A program made the translations under genes and the position numbers. Of a DNA stretch of 38,816 bases, positions 3,376 to 34,565 are shown one piece after another. The stretch lies in assembly GCA_016288855.1 (NCBI GenBank), contig JAEELJ010000047.1, forward strand, positions 1-38,816, given 5' to 3'. The DNA comes from Acholeplasmatales bacterium (lineage in GTDB: Bacteria > Bacillota_I > Bacilli_A > Acholeplasmatales > Anaeroplasmataceae). Each line of letters starts with the position of its first letter. The stretch's first letter is position 1. The notes below the pieces were generated by a model that saw only the letters and a program-made list of their open reading frames with translations, had not been told where the DNA came from and made no database searches.

Positions 3376-3792
3376 TCAAGATATTGTGTCTAAATGTGCC
3401 TGAATCAAATTAGCGTTTTGCTCAATTAGTTTTTTGTTTATTTCTTCTAATTCTTTAATCTTATTATCTTTTACAACTATTTCTCTTGATAATGACGATA
3501 CCTTCTTTTCTAAATTAGCAATTCTTAAATTTGCAATTGAAAGAGTTGCAATCTCTCTTTTTGTTTTATTCTCACGATTAATATAAGGAGATTTTTCTTT
3601 AATAATCTTCTTTATTTCTTCATTATGCTTTACAAAAGAGATTGAAACATCGGCTAATTTTGACACATTTCCATAAGTTATAGGCTCTCCCATTTTTTGC
3701 AACTCTTCTACTGCATCATAACATGCCTTTAAGCATTCCTCTGTCGTTAATTTAGGTTTTCTAAGTTTTGATACTTTTACATTTTTCTTCAT
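3376..3792 (-). CDS. tnpC: TnpC-like accessory protein (HTH plus coiled coil)
   Basis: 138 residues, close to Tn554 TnpC (about 125). It has a basic start, a predicted HTH (ITYGNVSKLADVSISFVKHN, roughly residues 39-58), and a C-terminal half made of leucine/isoleucine heptads (LSIANLRIANLEKKVSSLSRE onward) that should form a coiled coil. This layout is typical of the small protein encoded after the Tn554-type recombinases. AAGGAGATGAT precedes the ATG. It starts 14 bp after the third recombinase ends, so it belongs to the same operon. Role by analogy: accessory DNA-binding factor for transposition. Confidence 0.7.
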   Translation of the reverse strand: MKKNVKVSKLRKPKLTTEECLKACYDAVEELQKMGEPITYGNVSKLADVSISFVKHNEEIKKIIKEKSPYINRENKTKREIATLSIANLRIANLEKKVSSLSREIVVKDNKIKELEEINKKLIEQNANLIQAHLDTIS

Positions 3793-25545: not shown

Positions 25546-26355
25546 TTAGTTCCTATCTGGAATATCTACACCAATAACATATTCCTCTGTAGTACCAATT
25601 GGAAAATAATCATAAGCTTCATCTATTTCATCAACAGTAGCACCTTTATAAGCAATCCCATCAACCCAACCACTGCAGCAAATAATATAATGATGGTATG
25701 ATGTTACTCTTTCGGTCCATGTATGCCATAAAAATCTATTTGTTTTGTCATAGTCAAATGAAACCTGTAGATACCCATTTGCAACCATAGAATGCCCTTC
25801 TACACCAAAAAGTTGAACCTTTCCATAAGAATCACCATTTTTTGCTTTAGTAAAATCATAAACACCTTGATATATCTTATTTTTATTTATCCATGTTGTG
25901 TGATTGATTCCTTTCATTGCAAGAATATCTGAGAAAATGGATTGTTCATAGTAATTTTTTGTACCACCTTCAGTTGGATTAAACCACCCTTTTATAGATG
26001 CATAATTATAACATGTTTCGAATAATTCGTAGTCACTTGTGTCATCTTCTAAATAAAACTGTAGTGCAACTGCAGATGAAACAATAGAGCAACTCCCTTC
26101 ACAATCTTTCCCCTTATTTCGCATGTATTTATTCATTCTACCCTGAGAAATATTTCGGCACGGTACAAAATCATATTCAACCTTGTAATTGCTAACATTG
26201 GCAAATTGAGGAAGTAATAATTTCTTTATATCTGATTGTGTATATTCAATTATATCTAAAACATTAGCTCTATTAATTTTGTAGATATAAGGTCTATAGA
26301 CATCAATTAAAACTATAATTGTAACAATAAATATTATATTAAAAAACTTTTTCAT
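25546..26355 (-). CDS. Putative membrane-anchored papain/C39-like cysteine peptidase
   Basis: 269 residues with an N-terminal hydrophobic anchor (residues 4-20). The segment CEGSCSIVSSAVALQFY places C89 at the start of a helix, as in C39/papain-like peptidases, and VEGHSMVANGYLQ supplies H188 in the typical GHS(V/M)VAxGY setting; a third residue may lie in the later SYHHYIICCSGW region. These support a cysteine peptidase fold, though the oxyanion Gln is not obvious. The ribosome site is unusually G-rich (TTGGGGGAATTAG). Sitting between two paralogous surface proteins and ahead of an ABC transporter, it may mature or degrade an exported peptide, but no small precursor gene is visible in the operon. 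Confidence 0.65.
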   Translation of the reverse strand: MKKFFNIIFIVTIIVLIDVYRPYIYKINRANVLDIIEYTQSDIKKLLLPQFANVSNYKVEYDFVPCRNISQGRMNKYMRNKGKDCEGSCSIVSSAVALQFYLEDDTSDYELFETCYNYASIKGWFNPTEGGTKNYYEQSIFSDILAMKGINHTTWINKNKIYQGVYDFTKAKNGDSYGKVQLFGVEGHSMVANGYLQVSFDYDKTNRFLWHTWTERVTSYHHYIICCSGWVDGIAYKGATVDEIDEAYDYFPIGTTEEYVIGVDIPDRN

Positions 26356-26372
26356 ACTAATTCCCCCAATTT

Positions 26373-27044
26373 TTACTCATAATTATGTACCTTACTACAT
26401 TCATAGTAAGTATCATATAATGTAATTTTATATTCTTCACTATATATATCTTTTGTCTTTAAATATATTTCATTTCCATCTATTCTAACAATGCTTGGAT
26501 TAATCATATTATAAAACGAAAGTATATCTTCTTTTGATTTAATATCAAAAAAATTATAATATTGACTACCATATTCATAATAATCATCTAAAGATTCATA
26601 TGTAATAGTTCCTACTAGGTCAGTAGCCCAACTATAACCCATAAAATATGGAATACCATAATCAAAGGTTAATGGATAAGTAATTATCCTATTACGTTCA
26701 AAAGAATCGGACTTTGTTACTGCAAAAAACATATTGTCTACATAAAATAATAAATGACCATTATCACTTATATCTTTATATAAATGGTTATCTTTTTTTA
26801 TTTCTTCATATATTTTATCTCTATCATCTTTATTATCAAAAGTATATGTATATTCTAAAGGAAATCCACAAACTTCATATTTAATTTTATCAGATTTAAT
26901 AAGTACATAATCATCTTTATATGGATAATCTAAGATTATAGATATTCTATTATCTTTCTTATGGTTAGAAAGAATAAATATCATTACTACTGCAGTAATA
27001 ATAAGAATGGTACTAGATATTATAATAATTAATTTTTTCTTCAT
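26373..27044 (-). CDS. Membrane-anchored protein, first gene of the peptidase/ABC operon
   Basis: 223 residues: an N-terminal span (IIIISSTILIITAVVMIFIL) and an outside domain rich in Tyr and Asp. It is paralogous to the protein at 24911-25543 through the ESLDD...DIKSKEDILSFYNMINP...IDGNEIYL stretch. Family unknown. The ribosome site TTGGGGGAGTAG, 7 nt before the ATG, contains GGGGAG, the exact complement of the CUCCCC motif of the RNA units at 32243-33003. It starts the operon; the divergent msrC begins 145 bp away. Confidence 0.7.
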   Translation of the reverse strand: MKKKLIIIISSTILIITAVVMIFILSNHKKDNRISIILDYPYKDDYVLIKSDKIKYEVCGFPLEYTYTFDNKDDRDKIYEEIKKDNHLYKDISDNGHLLFYVDNMFFAVTKSDSFERNRIITYPLTFDYGIPYFMGYSWATDLVGTITYESLDDYYEYGSQYYNFFDIKSKEDILSFYNMINPSIVRIDGNEIYLKTKDIYSEEYKITLYDTYYECSKVHNYE

Positions 27045-30174: not shown

Positions 30175-31635
30175 TTATTTTAGGAATTCCGTATATGCCA
30201 TTACAAATGGTCCAGTGCCTTTCGCATCATTAGCACCAACTCTTTCAGAAAGATAATACTCTACTGTTCCATCTCTATATTGTTTATTAGATGGACCAAG
30301 GCCTGCGGTTATACAAATATCATTTAATTGTTGTGTATTATTATCATATGAATGGTTATATACTCCAATGTATATATTTTCCCCTATTCCATTTAATTCT
30401 TCTTTAATATAATTTAATCTTTCAGCCTTCATTAATGTATAAGAAATCATTGAAGAACCACTAGATTCTAAATAATTAGATATAAAAGCATCTGACTTAT
30501 AATCACTATTTAAAAATCTTAAATATCGATTATAATCTATATAATAACTCTCATTACCTTTATCTATAACCTGATAAAACATATTAGTATCATTATCTTT
30601 ATATTTTAGAATTGATTCTAATGCATCTTCTAGCATTTCTTTTAAATCATTTTGATAATTTAATGGGAAATACTCAATTGAATCTACAAGTGATGTTAAA
30701 AGCCATCCCATACTTCTTAACCAAAATGATTTAGAATTACCAGTATTATTATCACTCCAAAATATTTTTTCATCTGTATTATATGCTGTATCATGCCCAT
30801 GATAATATAATCCAGTATTACTGTCTTTCATATTATCTCTAATATAAATATATTGATTATATACTTCTTCATATATACTATCTATATTATACATTTTTGC
30901 GTATTGTAATAAGAATGGTACATACATATACATTCCATCTAGCCATATTTGGTTTTTATATGATGACTTATGTGAATAGCTAATACCATTTAAGGTTTTA
31001 GGTAATAATTCTTCATTTGTTAATTGATTATACGTATAATTTATTGCAGTTATATATCTATTATCATTTGTATAATCATATAATCTATATAATATATTAG
31101 ATTCACAAATAGTATCTAATTCCCCTGTTCTAAAACCATTATTAATAGTTGACTGATAATTACCATCCTCTCCTAAATAATAATATAAAAATTCTCCATT
31201 ACTATTTATATAATAATTCACATAATTAATTACAAAATTATAATAATAATCCTTATTAGAATTAGAATCTGCATAATCTAGAATAGATTTTAAAAATACG
31301 CCATCAATATAATTCCATCTTCCTTTAAAGCTTTCTTGATTCCATGCTGGAATAAATGAAGTTGTTTTATCAATTAAAGAATTAATATATGAATCAAGTT
31401 GATATTCATTTTTAATCTCTTTTGTTGTAGTATCTATTTCATTTACTGTTGAGGTAATATCACTTAATGTATTTGTTGTTGTATTAATGGTTGAAGTTTC
31501 ATTAGTATTTGAGGTACTTATAAAAGACGTTACATCTGTAACGTCAGTAGATTTTGTATTATCATTTTCACTTAAGCTACATGATACAAGCAAAGCTAAA
31601 GATGCTAAAGGAAATAATAAACCTTTTAATTTCAT
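30175..31635 (-). CDS. GH105-family lipoprotein, unsaturated rhamnogalacturonyl/glucuronyl hydrolase
   Basis: 486 residues. A lipoprotein signal ends in LLVSC (C19), followed by a Ser/Thr/Asn-rich linker to about residue 75. The (alpha/alpha)6-barrel motifs of the YteR/YesR family are visible: KGRWNYIDGVFLKS, NQIWLDGMYMYVPF with the catalytic-type Asp, LRSMGWLLTSLVDS, YLESSGSSMISYTL, and the hallmark ending DICITAGLGP...GANDAKGTGPFVMAY. The enzyme removes the unsaturated sugar from lyase-produced pectin or glycosaminoglycan oligomers. The lipid anchor puts it outside the membrane, which is unusual for GH105 enzymes, which are mostly cytoplasmic. Its ATG overlaps the previous stop (ATGA). Confidence 0.88.
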   Translation of the reverse strand: MKLKGLLFPLASLALLVSCSLSENDNTKSTDVTDVTSFISTSNTNETSTINTTTNTLSDITSTVNEIDTTTKEIKNEYQLDSYINSLIDKTTSFIPAWNQESFKGRWNYIDGVFLKSILDYADSNSNKDYYYNFVINYVNYYINSNGEFLYYYLGEDGNYQSTINNGFRTGELDTICESNILYRLYDYTNDNRYITAINYTYNQLTNEELLPKTLNGISYSHKSSYKNQIWLDGMYMYVPFLLQYAKMYNIDSIYEEVYNQYIYIRDNMKDSNTGLYYHGHDTAYNTDEKIFWSDNNTGNSKSFWLRSMGWLLTSLVDSIEYFPLNYQNDLKEMLEDALESILKYKDNDTNMFYQVIDKGNESYYIDYNRYLRFLNSDYKSDAFISNYLESSGSSMISYTLMKAERLNYIKEELNGIGENIYIGVYNHSYDNNTQQLNDICITAGLGPSNKQYRDGTVEYYLSERVGANDAKGTGPFVMAYTEFLK

Positions 31636-32114
31636 AGCTTTTCCTCAATGAATTTTAAATAATCTTGTGCCTTTTTAGTTAAAACCTCAAAACCAAAATA
31701 TTTTAATATTGCACGATATAATTCTTCACCACTTAAATCTAAATCTCTTGCAAGATTAACCATTTCCTGGTAAGGAACATCATATATTGTTCTTTCAATT
31801 CCAATTCTTAAATAGTCAACCTTAAATACTCCTTCTTTAGGCCATAATACAATATCATATAAATTATCTGTAATAACAAATCCCAATTTCTTAATTTCAT
31901 TATCTATTATAGTTTGAGCTTTTTCTCTTATTCTATCAACACCAAATGAAGTTCTTAATCTTAATTTTAATATATTCATAGTAATAGGAGCCTCAATTGC
32001 TACTATTTCTTTTAATAAATTATCAAGACGTTCTAATGCCTTAGGATTAGAAGAATATAGATCATCTAAGCTAATATTTTTTATTTTTGCAGTTTGGTAT
32101 TTAACTTCTTTCAT
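31632..32114 (-). CDS. DUF3320-like small protein
   Basis: 160 residues. The central part (LLKEIVAIEAPITMNILKLRLRTSFGVDRIREKAQTIID) and the following strand-rich half (FVITDNLYDIVLWPKEG) match the pattern of DUF3320, a domain usually fused to the C-terminus of large SF1 helicase-nuclease-like proteins. Here it stands alone, coupled by ATGA to the GH105 gene. AGGAGG precedes the ATG. No function is known; a nucleic-acid role is plausible from the fused relatives only. Confidence 0.65.
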   Translation of the reverse strand: MKEVKYQTAKIKNISLDDLYSSNPKALERLDNLLKEIVAIEAPITMNILKLRLRTSFGVDRIREKAQTIIDNEIKKLGFVITDNLYDIVLWPKEGVFKVDYLRIGIERTIYDVPYQEMVNLARDLDLSGEELYRAILKYFGFEVLTKKAQDYLKFIEEKL

Positions 32115-32160
32115 CGTAAGTCCTCCTAAATGGAATATCTAATGTTATTATATTATCTAA

Positions 32161-32189
32161 TTTGTTAAAATGATAGCGTTTTTAACAAA
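32161..32189. promoter_or_regulatory. Symmetrical TTTGTTAAA / TTTAACAAA operator-like repeat upstream of the DUF3320/GH105 operon
   Basis: A 9-bp perfect inverted repeat (32161-32169 and 32181-32189) with an 11-nt spacer lies about 50 bp before the DUF3320 start codon, just upstream of a TATAAT (minus, about 32147-32152). It resembles a repressor or activator site controlling the pectin-utilisation operon. No cognate regulator is seen. Confidence 0.5.
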
Positions 32190-32242
32190 TTTTCACATAA
32201 AATAATGGAAATAATACGATTTTTAGGCCTTATAATAAGGCT

Positions 32243-32448
32243 GTTCTTATAAAAAGAACCTATGAATTAAAGAAATACTAAAGCATCTTATATACTTTCT
32301 CCCCAATTACAAATTTATTTGATGCATTTATGTTATATGTAGCTTTTCACCTTTTTGAAGAGAGATAACATAAAAAGTATTTCTTTACTTCCCCAAATTA
32401 ATTTCATTTTTTCATTTCTCTAAAAAGCCAGTAGTTTAAGGCTTTTTT
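32243..32448 (+). ncRNA. Candidate small RNA A of a tandem CUCCCC array
   Basis: No open frame. A TATAAT at 32231-32236 precedes it. The 5' hairpin GTTCTT / AAGAAC (32243-32259) is followed by an 11-bp perfect long-range stem AAAGAAATACT (32269-32279) / AGTATTTCTTT (32376-32386). Inside, GCATC (32283-32287) pairs with GATGC (32321-32325), and CUCCCC (32299-32304) lies in that loop. A second TTCCCC is at 32389-32394. The unit ends in AAAAGCC / GGCTTTTT (32423-32447) with a T run, a terminator on the plus strand. It shares layout with units B and C. Confidence 0.7.
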
Positions 32449-32545
32449 ATTTTTCCTTTATAATTTGAAAAAATGTTCACATAATTTACAAAGATATTAC
32501 TAAATAATATTTATATTATTTCTATATTCTTTTTATATACTGTAA

Positions 32546-32752
32546 GTGTCTTAAAGAAAGGTAAGAACAAGAAAGGTGGATAGGAGATCCTGAATTATGT
32601 TTTTATATATTCTCCCCTAATATAAAAAACACAAACATAAAACTAACATAAGAAATAACATTATCTAAACAAAACAAGTTATAAATTCAAATTATAAATT
32701 CATAATTCAGCACAAAAAGAAACTCAAGACTTTTTTCTTGAGTTCTTTTTTT
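32546..32752 (+). ncRNA. Candidate small RNA B of the tandem CUCCCC array
   Basis: TATACT at 32536-32541 is followed by AAGTGTCTTAAAGAAA, which recurs almost unchanged at the start of unit C. A 10-bp perfect stem CTGAATTATG (32590-32599) / CATAATTCAG (32701-32710) encloses a hairpin GTTTTTATAT (32599-32608) / ATATAAAAAAC (32620-32630), whose 11-nt loop exposes CUCCCC (32612-32617). A direct repeat TATAAATTCA occurs before the closing arm. The terminator AACTCAAG / CTTGAGTT (32721-32744) with seven T ends the unit. There is no coding frame. Confidence 0.75.
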
Positions 32753-32857
32753 ATACTTTTTATGTTAAAAACTTTGATTTTCTTACAAAAATCACATTTT
32801 TTACACGAAGTTTTACTTTTTAAAAAAATAATTAGTCGATAATTTAGTACTATACTA

Positions 32858-33002
32858 TAAGTGTCTTAAGGAAGACAACACAATATTACTTATTAAGCTT
32901 TAGACAACATAACAAATTCATTTTCTCTCCCCAAACAAACACATACATTAAAGCTTAATAAAAAAGAAAAATATGCCAGGAACTTTTTTCCCTGGCTTTT
33001 TT
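32858..33002 (+). ncRNA. Candidate small RNA C of the tandem CUCCCC array
   Basis: TATACT at 32851-32856 is followed by AAGTGTCTTAAGGAAG, matching unit B. A 13-bp perfect stem TTATTAAGCTTTA (32890-32902) / TAAAGCTTAATAA (32949-32961) closes a 46-nt loop holding CUCUCCCC (CUCCCC at 32927-32932). The strong terminator GCCAGG / CCTGGC (32975-32996) with a T run follows. It has no open frame and is shorter than units A and B. Confidence 0.75.
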
Positions 33003-33015
33003 CTTTTTATATCAT

Positions 33016-33043
33016 AAAAGGCATAACCTAAATTGGTTATGCC
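33016..33043 (-). terminator. Terminator after serS
   Basis: The stem GGCATAACC / GGTTATGCC (33020-33043) with a 6-nt loop is followed by TTTT on the minus strand. It also separates serS from the convergent small-RNA array. Confidence 0.8.
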
Positions 33044-33050
33044 ATATTTA

Positions 33051-34337
33051 TTAATGCTTTGGAGTAAGCTTCTTTAAACCACCCATGTATGGTTGTAATG
33101 CCATAGGTACATTAATTGAGCCATCTTCATTATAGTTGTTTTCAATAACTGCGATTAATCCTCTTGGAGATGCAACAACAGTATTATTTAGAGTATGTAC
33201 TAAATATGTACCATCCTTGCCCTTTGTACGGATACCTAATCTTCTTGATTGTGCATCACCTAAAGTTGAACAAGAACCAACCTCAAAATACTTCTTCTGT
33301 CTTGGAGACCATGCTTCAACATCACAAGATTTAACCTTTAAGTCAGCAAGATCACCTGTACAGCATTCTAATGTTCTAACAGGAACATCTAGTGAGCGGA
33401 AGAATTCTACTGTATATGACCACATCTTGTTATAATAATCCATTGAATCCTCTGGCTTACAAATAACAATCATTTCTTCCTTTTCAAATTGGTGTACACG
33501 ATATAGACCACGCTCTTCAATACCATGAGCACCAACTTCCTTACGGAAGCATGGAGAATATGAAGTTAGCTTTAATGGTAAATCTTCTTCTTTAATGATT
33601 TGTCCTTTGAAACGACCAATCATTGAATGTTCAGATGTACCAATTAAATATAAATCTTCGCCCTGAATCTTATACATCATACCTTCCATTTCAGCAAATG
33701 ACATAACACCTGTTACAACATCTGAATGAATCATGAATGGAGGTACGCAATATATGAATCCCTTATTAATCATGAAGTCTCTTGCGTAAGATAGCATTGC
33801 TGAATGTAATCTTGCGATATCACCACATAAATAGTAAAAACCATTACCTGATGTTCTACCAGCACTATCCTTATCTAAGCCATCAAACTTAGCAATGATA
33901 TCTGCATGATATGGAATTTCATAATTTGGTACTACTGGTTCACCAAATTTTTCATTTTCAACATTTTCACTATCGTCCTTACCAACAGGTACACTCTTAT
34001 CAACGATATTTGGAATTACATACATCTTCTTTTGTAATTCTTCTGTTAATGAAGGAAGCTTATCATCAAGCTCTTTAATCTTATCATCATATCCACCAAG
34101 TGAATTCTTAAGATTCATAGCTTCATCCTTCTTGCCTTCACGCATTAATTGACCAATAAGCTTTGAATCCTTATTCTTTTGAGCCTTTAATGCTTCAACC
34201 TCAGTCTTGATTGCTCTAATTTCTTTATCTAATGCAATAACTTCATCAACCAAAGGTAATTTTTCGTCTTGGAATTTCTTCTTAATATTTTCCTTTACTA
34301 CTTCTGGATTTTCTCTTACAAATTTAATGTCTAACAT
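33051..34337 (-). CDS. serS: Seryl-tRNA synthetase
   Basis: 428 residues, typical SerRS length. An N-terminal coiled-coil arm (about residues 30-100) is rich in Lys and Leu with KAQKNKDSKLIGQLMREGKK. The class II core shows motif 2 CFRKEVGAHGIEERGLYRVHQFEKEE, the TSEH substrate loop and motif 3 LNNTVVASPRGLIAVIENN. It charges tRNA-Ser (and tRNA-Sec where present) with serine. AAGGAGATAA precedes the ATG. Expression is governed by the T-box leader directly upstream. Confidence 0.97.
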   Translation of the reverse strand: MLDIKFVRENPEVVKENIKKKFQDEKLPLVDEVIALDKEIRAIKTEVEALKAQKNKDSKLIGQLMREGKKDEAMNLKNSLGGYDDKIKELDDKLPSLTEELQKKMYVIPNIVDKSVPVGKDDSENVENEKFGEPVVPNYEIPYHADIIAKFDGLDKDSAGRTSGNGFYYLCGDIARLHSAMLSYARDFMINKGFIYCVPPFMIHSDVVTGVMSFAEMEGMMYKIQGEDLYLIGTSEHSMIGRFKGQIIKEEDLPLKLTSYSPCFRKEVGAHGIEERGLYRVHQFEKEEMIVICKPEDSMDYYNKMWSYTVEFFRSLDVPVRTLECCTGDLADLKVKSCDVEAWSPRQKKYFEVGSCSTLGDAQSRRLGIRTKGKDGTYLVHTLNNTVVASPRGLIAVIENNYNEDGSINVPMALQPYMGGLKKLTPKH

Positions 34338-34356: not shown

Positions 34357-34565
34357 TAAAAAAAGCCCTTAGAAAAAATATCTAAGGACGGAATTACCGC
34401 GGTGCCACCTTATTTCTTGCTTCAAGCAAGCTCTCTTACCACTAACGTAGGCAGACGTTTTCTTATCATGGTTTGATTCATTTACTATGTATGCCATATC
34501 GCACCAAACTATGGCTCTCTTAAATACATTTAAGGTAAATTACTATTTCCAATCTTTTAAGAAAA
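34357..34565 (-). promoter_or_regulatory. T-box riboswitch leader of serS
   Basis: On the minus strand the universal T-box core GGTGGCACCGCGG lies at 34397-34409, followed by a terminator stem CCTTAG / CTAAGG (34367-34387) with a T run at 34357-34364. Upstream are AGAGAG and the paired arms expected for stem I. Uncharged tRNA-Ser binding should favour the antiterminator and allow serS transcription. I could not fix the specifier codon: TCA in GAATCAAAC and AGT in CATAGTAAA are the visible serine candidates. Confidence 0.95.

Follow-up and report, generated by a model that had tools for sequence, protein, structure and literature searches.

Three tandem CUCCCC-loop units in an Acholeplasmatales contig as predicted anti-Shine–Dalgarno small RNAs of a new family

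A tandem array between a DUF3320 gene and serS

The window analysed here, a stretch of 38,816 nt, is the whole of contig C56 in a draft genome of 1.77 Mb; its serS has its nearest relatives in Acholeplasmatales/Anaeroplasmataceae MAGs from gut and rumen. Between serS and a divergent DUF3320 gene lies a gap of about 900 bp (32115-33050) with no open reading frame of 60 aa or more, bearing out a preliminary description of this DNA that had spoken of 760 bp without an open frame. The gap holds an array of three complete plus-strand units, A, B and C (32178-33002), each of which consists of a promoter, a 5′ hairpin or a diverged start, a stem around CUCCCC and a terminator. None of the three has a gene in the same direction downstream: A and B are followed by the next unit and C by the convergent serS. 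The features are as follows.

31632..32114, minus strand: DUF3320-domain gene (PF11784, E 2e-6), divergent neighbour that marks the syntenic locus
32181..32206, plus strand: unit A upstream tandem box, TTTAACA..TTTTCACATAA, aligned with the boxes of 24 other units (profile match 32178-32244)
32231..32236, plus strand: unit A -10 element TATAAT, by its position in the aligned promoters
32243..32450, plus strand: unit A predicted sRNA of ~205 nt, with predicted ends (fold z -5.07)
32243-32259, plus strand: unit A 5′ hairpin, GUUCUUAUAAAAAGAAC
32268-32279/32376-32387, plus strand: unit A outer stem of 12 bp, from the stem check
32299-32304, plus strand: unit A CUCCCC in the inner hairpin loop
32388-32394, plus strand: unit A second C-run, CUUCCCC
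32422-32448, plus strand: unit A terminator
32476..32490, plus strand: unit B upstream tandem box, TTCACATAATTTACA (profile match 32471-32559)
32536..32541, plus strand: unit B -10 element TATACT, within the 23-nt match to unit C
32545..32752, plus strand: unit B predicted sRNA of ~208 nt (fold z -1.91, weak; promoter and 5′ end as in the family)
32590-32599/32701-32710, plus strand: unit B stem of 10 bp
32612-32617, plus strand: unit B CUCCCC
32721-32752, plus strand: unit B terminator, from the terminator scan
32792..32806, plus strand: unit C upstream tandem box, TCACATTTTTTACAC (profile match 32784-32875)
32851..32856, plus strand: unit C -10 element TATACT; exact TATACTATAAGTGTCTTAA also in genomes G010 and G017
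32860..33002, plus strand: unit C predicted sRNA of ~143 nt (fold z -6.18)
32861-32881, plus strand: unit C 5′ hairpin
32890-32902/32949-32961, plus strand: unit C stem of 13 bp
32925-32932, plus strand: unit C CUCUCCCC with CAU before it
32975-33002, plus strand: unit C terminator
33051..34337, minus strand: serS (Pfam seryl-tRNA synthetase domains), convergent neighbour that marks the syntenic locus

Judging from the -10 elements, transcripts would be expected to start near 32243, 32545 and 32860. The 23 nt shared by B and C, TATACT(G/A)TAAGTGTCTTAA(A/G)GAA, include the -10 element, so that the common start noticed earlier extends into the promoter; unit A starts with a diverged version of it (TATAATAAGGCTGTTCTTATAAAAAG). 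The stems described before as 11, 10 and 13 bp hold for B and C, whereas A has an outer stem of 12 bp. CUCCCC does lie in the enclosed loop of all three units, with a correction for A: its predicted fold is a three-way junction with the motif in an inner hairpin of 5 bp, and the second C-run is present as well. Despite different sequences, this three-way-junction shape is common to unit A and units of genomes G003, G024 and G025. With z-scores of -5.1 (A), -1.9 (B) and -6.2 (C), B is the weakest on structure alone. The terminators proposed for each unit were all found, and the terminator scan gave 6 terminator-like sites against 0.5 expected.

Profile matches and conservation in sister species

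We built a promoter/5′-end profile from 20 units of other genomes, with neither the window's genome nor its nearest sister in the training set. Its only matches across the 38.8 kb are the three units (C at E 1.4e-8, B at 1.8e-6 and A at 6e-4; the next best at 0.95), showing that all three carry the tandem box, -10 element and 5′ end of the new family. The scores of model R1, which we used for genome searches, are not independent for A, B and C because the model included them.

Searching sister genomes with the B/C start revealed more sites followed by CUCCC and terminators, with three tandem copies beside serS in G010. The DUF3320 gene has orthologues in 23 of 55 genomes of the family, and about ten of these orthologues have units upstream. 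At this locus, G003, G008, G010, G011, G013, G014, G017, G023 and G024 have between one and three units built in the same way, in keeping with the variable copy number anticipated for related genomes. In about ten sister species, units adjoin serS, the DUF3320 gene or both, and serS-linked units are also present in other genera. The unit C orthologue in G004 is 80% identical and its 13-bp stem has one two-sided and one wobble change; between the serS-linked units of G072 and G031 there is one two-sided stem change.

At the gathering score, Rfam left the array empty, the sole match in the window being the T-box leader of serS (34381-34565, minus strand; RF00230, 117.9 bits), an ordinary one. 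On the array, a permissive threshold added chance-level matches only. The outcome against which the preliminary description had set its reading, namely that one unit would prove to be 6S RNA or another known class and the others unrelated, did not occur: no Rfam family matched. A plasmid collection gave no match.

A type I paralogue branch with covarying stems

A strongly conserved RNA with two CUCCC motifs, called type I here, is predicted to be driven by the same promoter as the A/B/C-like units. Of the 160 genomes of the order, 42 contain it according to covariance model R2. These belong to five genera, all from the family of the window's genome, and have 1-6 copies each, partly in tandem and in several unrelated contexts. 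In the alignment of 76 matches, 92.8% of cells pair and 11 of 12 pairs have changed on both sides; the covariation score is 0.247. Shuffles give 0.130, with none of 500 reaching the observed score, and slid controls 0.058 at most. Among the 76 rows, three are reverse-strand artefacts from loci already included, and the alignment was fitted to the model; the low score of the slid controls argues against this as the cause of the covariation. Across genera, the type I core, UUUUUCAUAAGCAAACUAUAACUCUCCCAA, hardly varies. The window's genome (G000) has one type I copy (C27:509-593). At G063:C6:1-11000 (L277), in another genus of the family, four degenerate copies within 8 kb form a local expansion.

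Units A, B and C gave no significant match to the R2 core model and thus constitute a separate branch, with promoter and architecture in common with type I and core sequence not. Within the window, R2 matched 3624-3695 and 26315-26371. Both places were rejected as members; they overlap coding/ribosome-site sequence of minus-strand genes and lie below significance.

A tandem promoter box linked to a response regulator

Both branches carry the tandem box TCACATA-N3-TCACATA upstream of the -10 element. In the aligned promoters it reads TCACATATTTTCACATAA, a 10-bp tandem repeat, and is followed by TATACTATA; these promoters show no -35 consensus between box and -10. Most units have their repeats starting about 48 and 38 nt upstream of the -10 element; in B and C they lie roughly one helical turn further upstream. 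The promoter model matches every one of the 27 genus genomes and, across the order, 54 of 160. CUCCC or UCCCC follows within 200 nt in 78 of 94 promoter matches, many of them related copies, compared with 9% of random stretches.

Of 25 genus genomes, at least 16 have the box, together with an sRNA or short leader, directly between the RNA polymerase delta gene and the gene for an OmpR/PhoB-type response regulator (domains Response_reg and Trans_reg_C), which comes with a HisKA/HATPase histidine kinase. The box and a short terminated leader again precede a related regulator gene in two other families of the order, and the recognition helix of the regulator, VVDDL[LM]RRLRQK, is nearly invariant. 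The window's own genome has the regulator gene at G000:C76:10536-11201, with a diverged leader only and no clear type I sRNA there. We name this regulator as the putative activator mainly because a box before its own gene is the pattern that autoregulation would give. Box promoters are also found before genes for a Trypsin_2 lipoprotein protease, a MacB_PCD ABC transporter, VTC-domain proteins and lipoproteins, a set that suggests an envelope-stress regulon behind these promoters. The common promoter box and the two-component link, both missed by the preliminary description, are stronger evidence than its own.

CUCCC loops resemble antisense to translation starts

CUCCC is predicted to be unpaired with a mean probability of 0.94; with shuffled flanking sequence the value is 0.70. 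Of 20 divergent units, 15 have a CAU no more than 16 nt 5′ of the C-run, against 6.5 expected, and 4 have one on the 3′ side; because the units are related, a p-value is only indicative here. Unit B has no CAU before its C-run. Unpaired and usually with CAU on their 5′ side, the loops look antisense to a Shine–Dalgarno (SD) sequence followed by AUG, and occlusion of ribosome binding on target mRNAs is the likely action of the sRNAs. Leader RNAs from the two other families of the order carry CUUCAUUUUUCUCUC, close to UUCAUUUUCUCUCCCC of unit C.

A search of all 27 genus genomes for sites that complement either of two conserved loops and include an SD and ATG found no conserved target mRNA. The idea of one such target was dropped, as the search yielded the sRNAs themselves and isolated single sites about as often as in the control. 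Starts of the form GGGGAG-N4-11-ATG number 26 in the window's own genome and 7 in the reversed control, a difference that SD sequences would be expected to give. Apart from some membrane proteins and lipoproteins, the genes concerned had no clear function in common. Within the window, the gene at 26373-27044 has a candidate start with GGGGAGTAGAAATG; a lipoprotein gene at G000:C47:18382 has another candidate start. Units L123, L032, L028, L168 and L033 have AGAAAGGAG, a good SD, just after the 5′ hairpin with no conserved frame behind it; this element is possibly a 5′ stabiliser.

Relation to known multicopy sRNAs

RsaE/RoxS and other UCCC sRNAs of Firmicutes block SD sequences with an unpaired C-rich motif; they are not known to form tandem multicopy families of the A/B/C architecture. 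The new family resembles them in that motif, and neither the array nor its relatives gave an Rfam match to them.

The csRNAs of streptococci, part of the CiaRH regulon, have two-component promoters in which a direct repeat precedes the -10, occur in 2-6 copies of 51-202 nt, carry an unpaired anti-SD with a CAU anti-AUG in 53 of 61 cases and end in a terminator (PMC3091779). The new family is alike in its box promoter with a direct repeat, its several copies (three units and one type I copy in the window's genome), its unpaired anti-SD with CAU (unit B being without the CAU) and its terminator. It differs in holding CUCCC in the loop of a long variable stem, in its lineage and in its regulator, whose recognition helix is VVDDLMRRLRQKM and not VVEVYVSKVRKKL. 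Against the csRNA family (RF02379), unit A reached 19.5 bits (gathering score 57; E 9.7), B and C gave nothing, and no relative matched. The CiaR repeat TTTAAG-N5-TTTAAG, which lies ten bases before the -10 (PMC3091779), gave chance-level two-mismatch matches only, the one in the array (32435) being inside a terminator.

LhrC1-5 of Listeria are multicopy, LisRK-dependent and induced by cell-envelope stress, and their repeated CUCCC, in loops or single-stranded stretches, pairs near the SD; in UCCC-motif sRNAs of Firmicutes, a C-rich unpaired motif blocks SD sequences (PMC4132741). The new family likewise is multicopy with CUCCC in loops. Unlike in LhrC, its CUCCC is not in the terminator loop; we saw no sequence similarity, and the host lineage is another one. 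At the gathering score, no match to LhrC or any other Rfam family was obtained in the array or its relatives. With the Rfam score, the CiaR repeat and the host lineage all speaking against membership, the new family would work like csRNAs and LhrC and belong to neither. The predicted sRNA family of A, B, C and type I is new, absent from Rfam and of a known kind. In the open-access literature on sRNAs of Anaeroplasma and Acholeplasma, we found nothing on it.

Model and alternative explanations

We consider it probable that each of the three tandem units is a gene for a trans-acting anti-SD sRNA of a new family, switched on by an envelope-stress two-component system and blocking translation. The OmpR/PhoB-type regulator, probably answering cell-envelope stress, would bind the tandem TCACATA box and switch on an sRNA promoter without a recognisable -35 element. 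The resulting sRNA would have a short 5′ hairpin in most members and an intrinsic terminator at its end, and a stem of variable sequence would keep CUCCC(C) open in a loop, usually with CAU a few nucleotides 5′. This loop may pair with the SD, and often the AUG, of target mRNAs to stop ribosome loading. Among copies that differ in their stems and loop flanks, targets would be either shared or divided. The model draws on conservation, architecture, type I covariation, predicted accessibility, promoter sharing and the link between box and regulator; transcription, regulator binding, the stress signal and the targets are what we infer. Synteny, type I covariation, the absence of an Rfam family and accessible antisense-like loops together support, at the level of comparative sequence data, the earlier proposal of multicopy CUCCC sRNAs that form a family of their own and act by blocking ribosome sites.

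That the array is a chance product of AT-rich intergenic DNA with terminators and C-runs is extremely improbable; inverted repeats are common in such DNA and the fold of B is weak, yet this reading is contradicted by the comparative data, with independent profile E-values down to 1.4e-8, synteny in about ten species and six terminator-like sites where 0.5 were expected. The units might instead be cis-acting leaders or attenuators, or terminated 5′ fragments, with no trans function, as could be expected from the many genomes in which a type I RNA, followed by a terminator, lies directly upstream of the response regulator gene. We hold this to be improbable, given that A, B and C have no same-direction gene after them and that type I copies occur in tandem and in unrelated contexts.

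Alternatively, the RNAs could mainly bind a protein or the ribosome as decoy or housekeeping RNAs, with CUCCC not serving as a target-pairing seed. The near-invariance of the type I core exceeds the need of a short seed and no common mRNA target was found, but multiple copies with different loops around CAU...CUCCC fit antisense to translation starts, as in csRNAs (PMC3091779) and LhrC (PMC4132741), and no Rfam class matches; the odds for a decoy seem low to us. A product on the opposite strand, in the form of small SD + ATG peptides, perhaps with the plus-strand RNA as antitoxin of a type I toxin–antitoxin pair, is very improbable. The reverse complement of several loops does read SD-spacer-ATG (unit C: GGGGAGAGAAAATGAATTTG), and a separate type I toxin–antitoxin candidate in the genome has a similar -10 and 5′ end. 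We reject the peptide reading because the peptides, which are short, are not conserved (MNLLCCLKLNK in unit C, MNLLCIKA in its G004 orthologue); moreover, the stems show compensatory changes, and promoters and T-run terminators point along the plus strand.

If A, B and C are indeed anti-SD sRNAs under two-component control, they would add a third lineage in which stress two-component systems act through multicopy sRNAs against ribosome sites. The host lineage comprises free-living relatives of Mycoplasma, for which the literature searched held no comparable sRNA circuit. With its many natural variants per genome, the family lends itself to comparisons of how anti-SD sRNAs acquire target specificity. 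The new family also makes a convergent versus an ancestral origin of the csRNA and LhrC circuits testable. An origin of such a circuit, a two-component system with multicopy anti-SD/anti-AUG sRNAs, in the ancestor of Bacilli, with csRNAs (CiaRH), LhrC (LisRK) and the order-wide new family as descendants that kept the promoter logic and CAU...CUCCC while their sequences turned over completely, strikes us as unlikely.

Other loci with related promoters

A likely type I toxin–antitoxin module with an Fst/par-like layout is present in the window's own genome (L145:1501-1700; G000:C46:14038), and also at L114, L120, L122, L133 and L137. It comprises a convergent small hydrophobic ORF (MEYLIILIVIMVLIIIINKNSYR), a shared bidirectional terminator and direct repeats, and the promoter and 5′ end of its antitoxin RNA (TATACTATAAGTGTCTTGA) resemble those of the sRNA family. 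A candidate family member, also in the own genome, is found at L144/L146 (G000:C45:7337-7381 and C49:82-126), where TATAATGTAGGTGTATTAA is followed by CCCUCCC and a terminator, with identical sequence at both contig ends.
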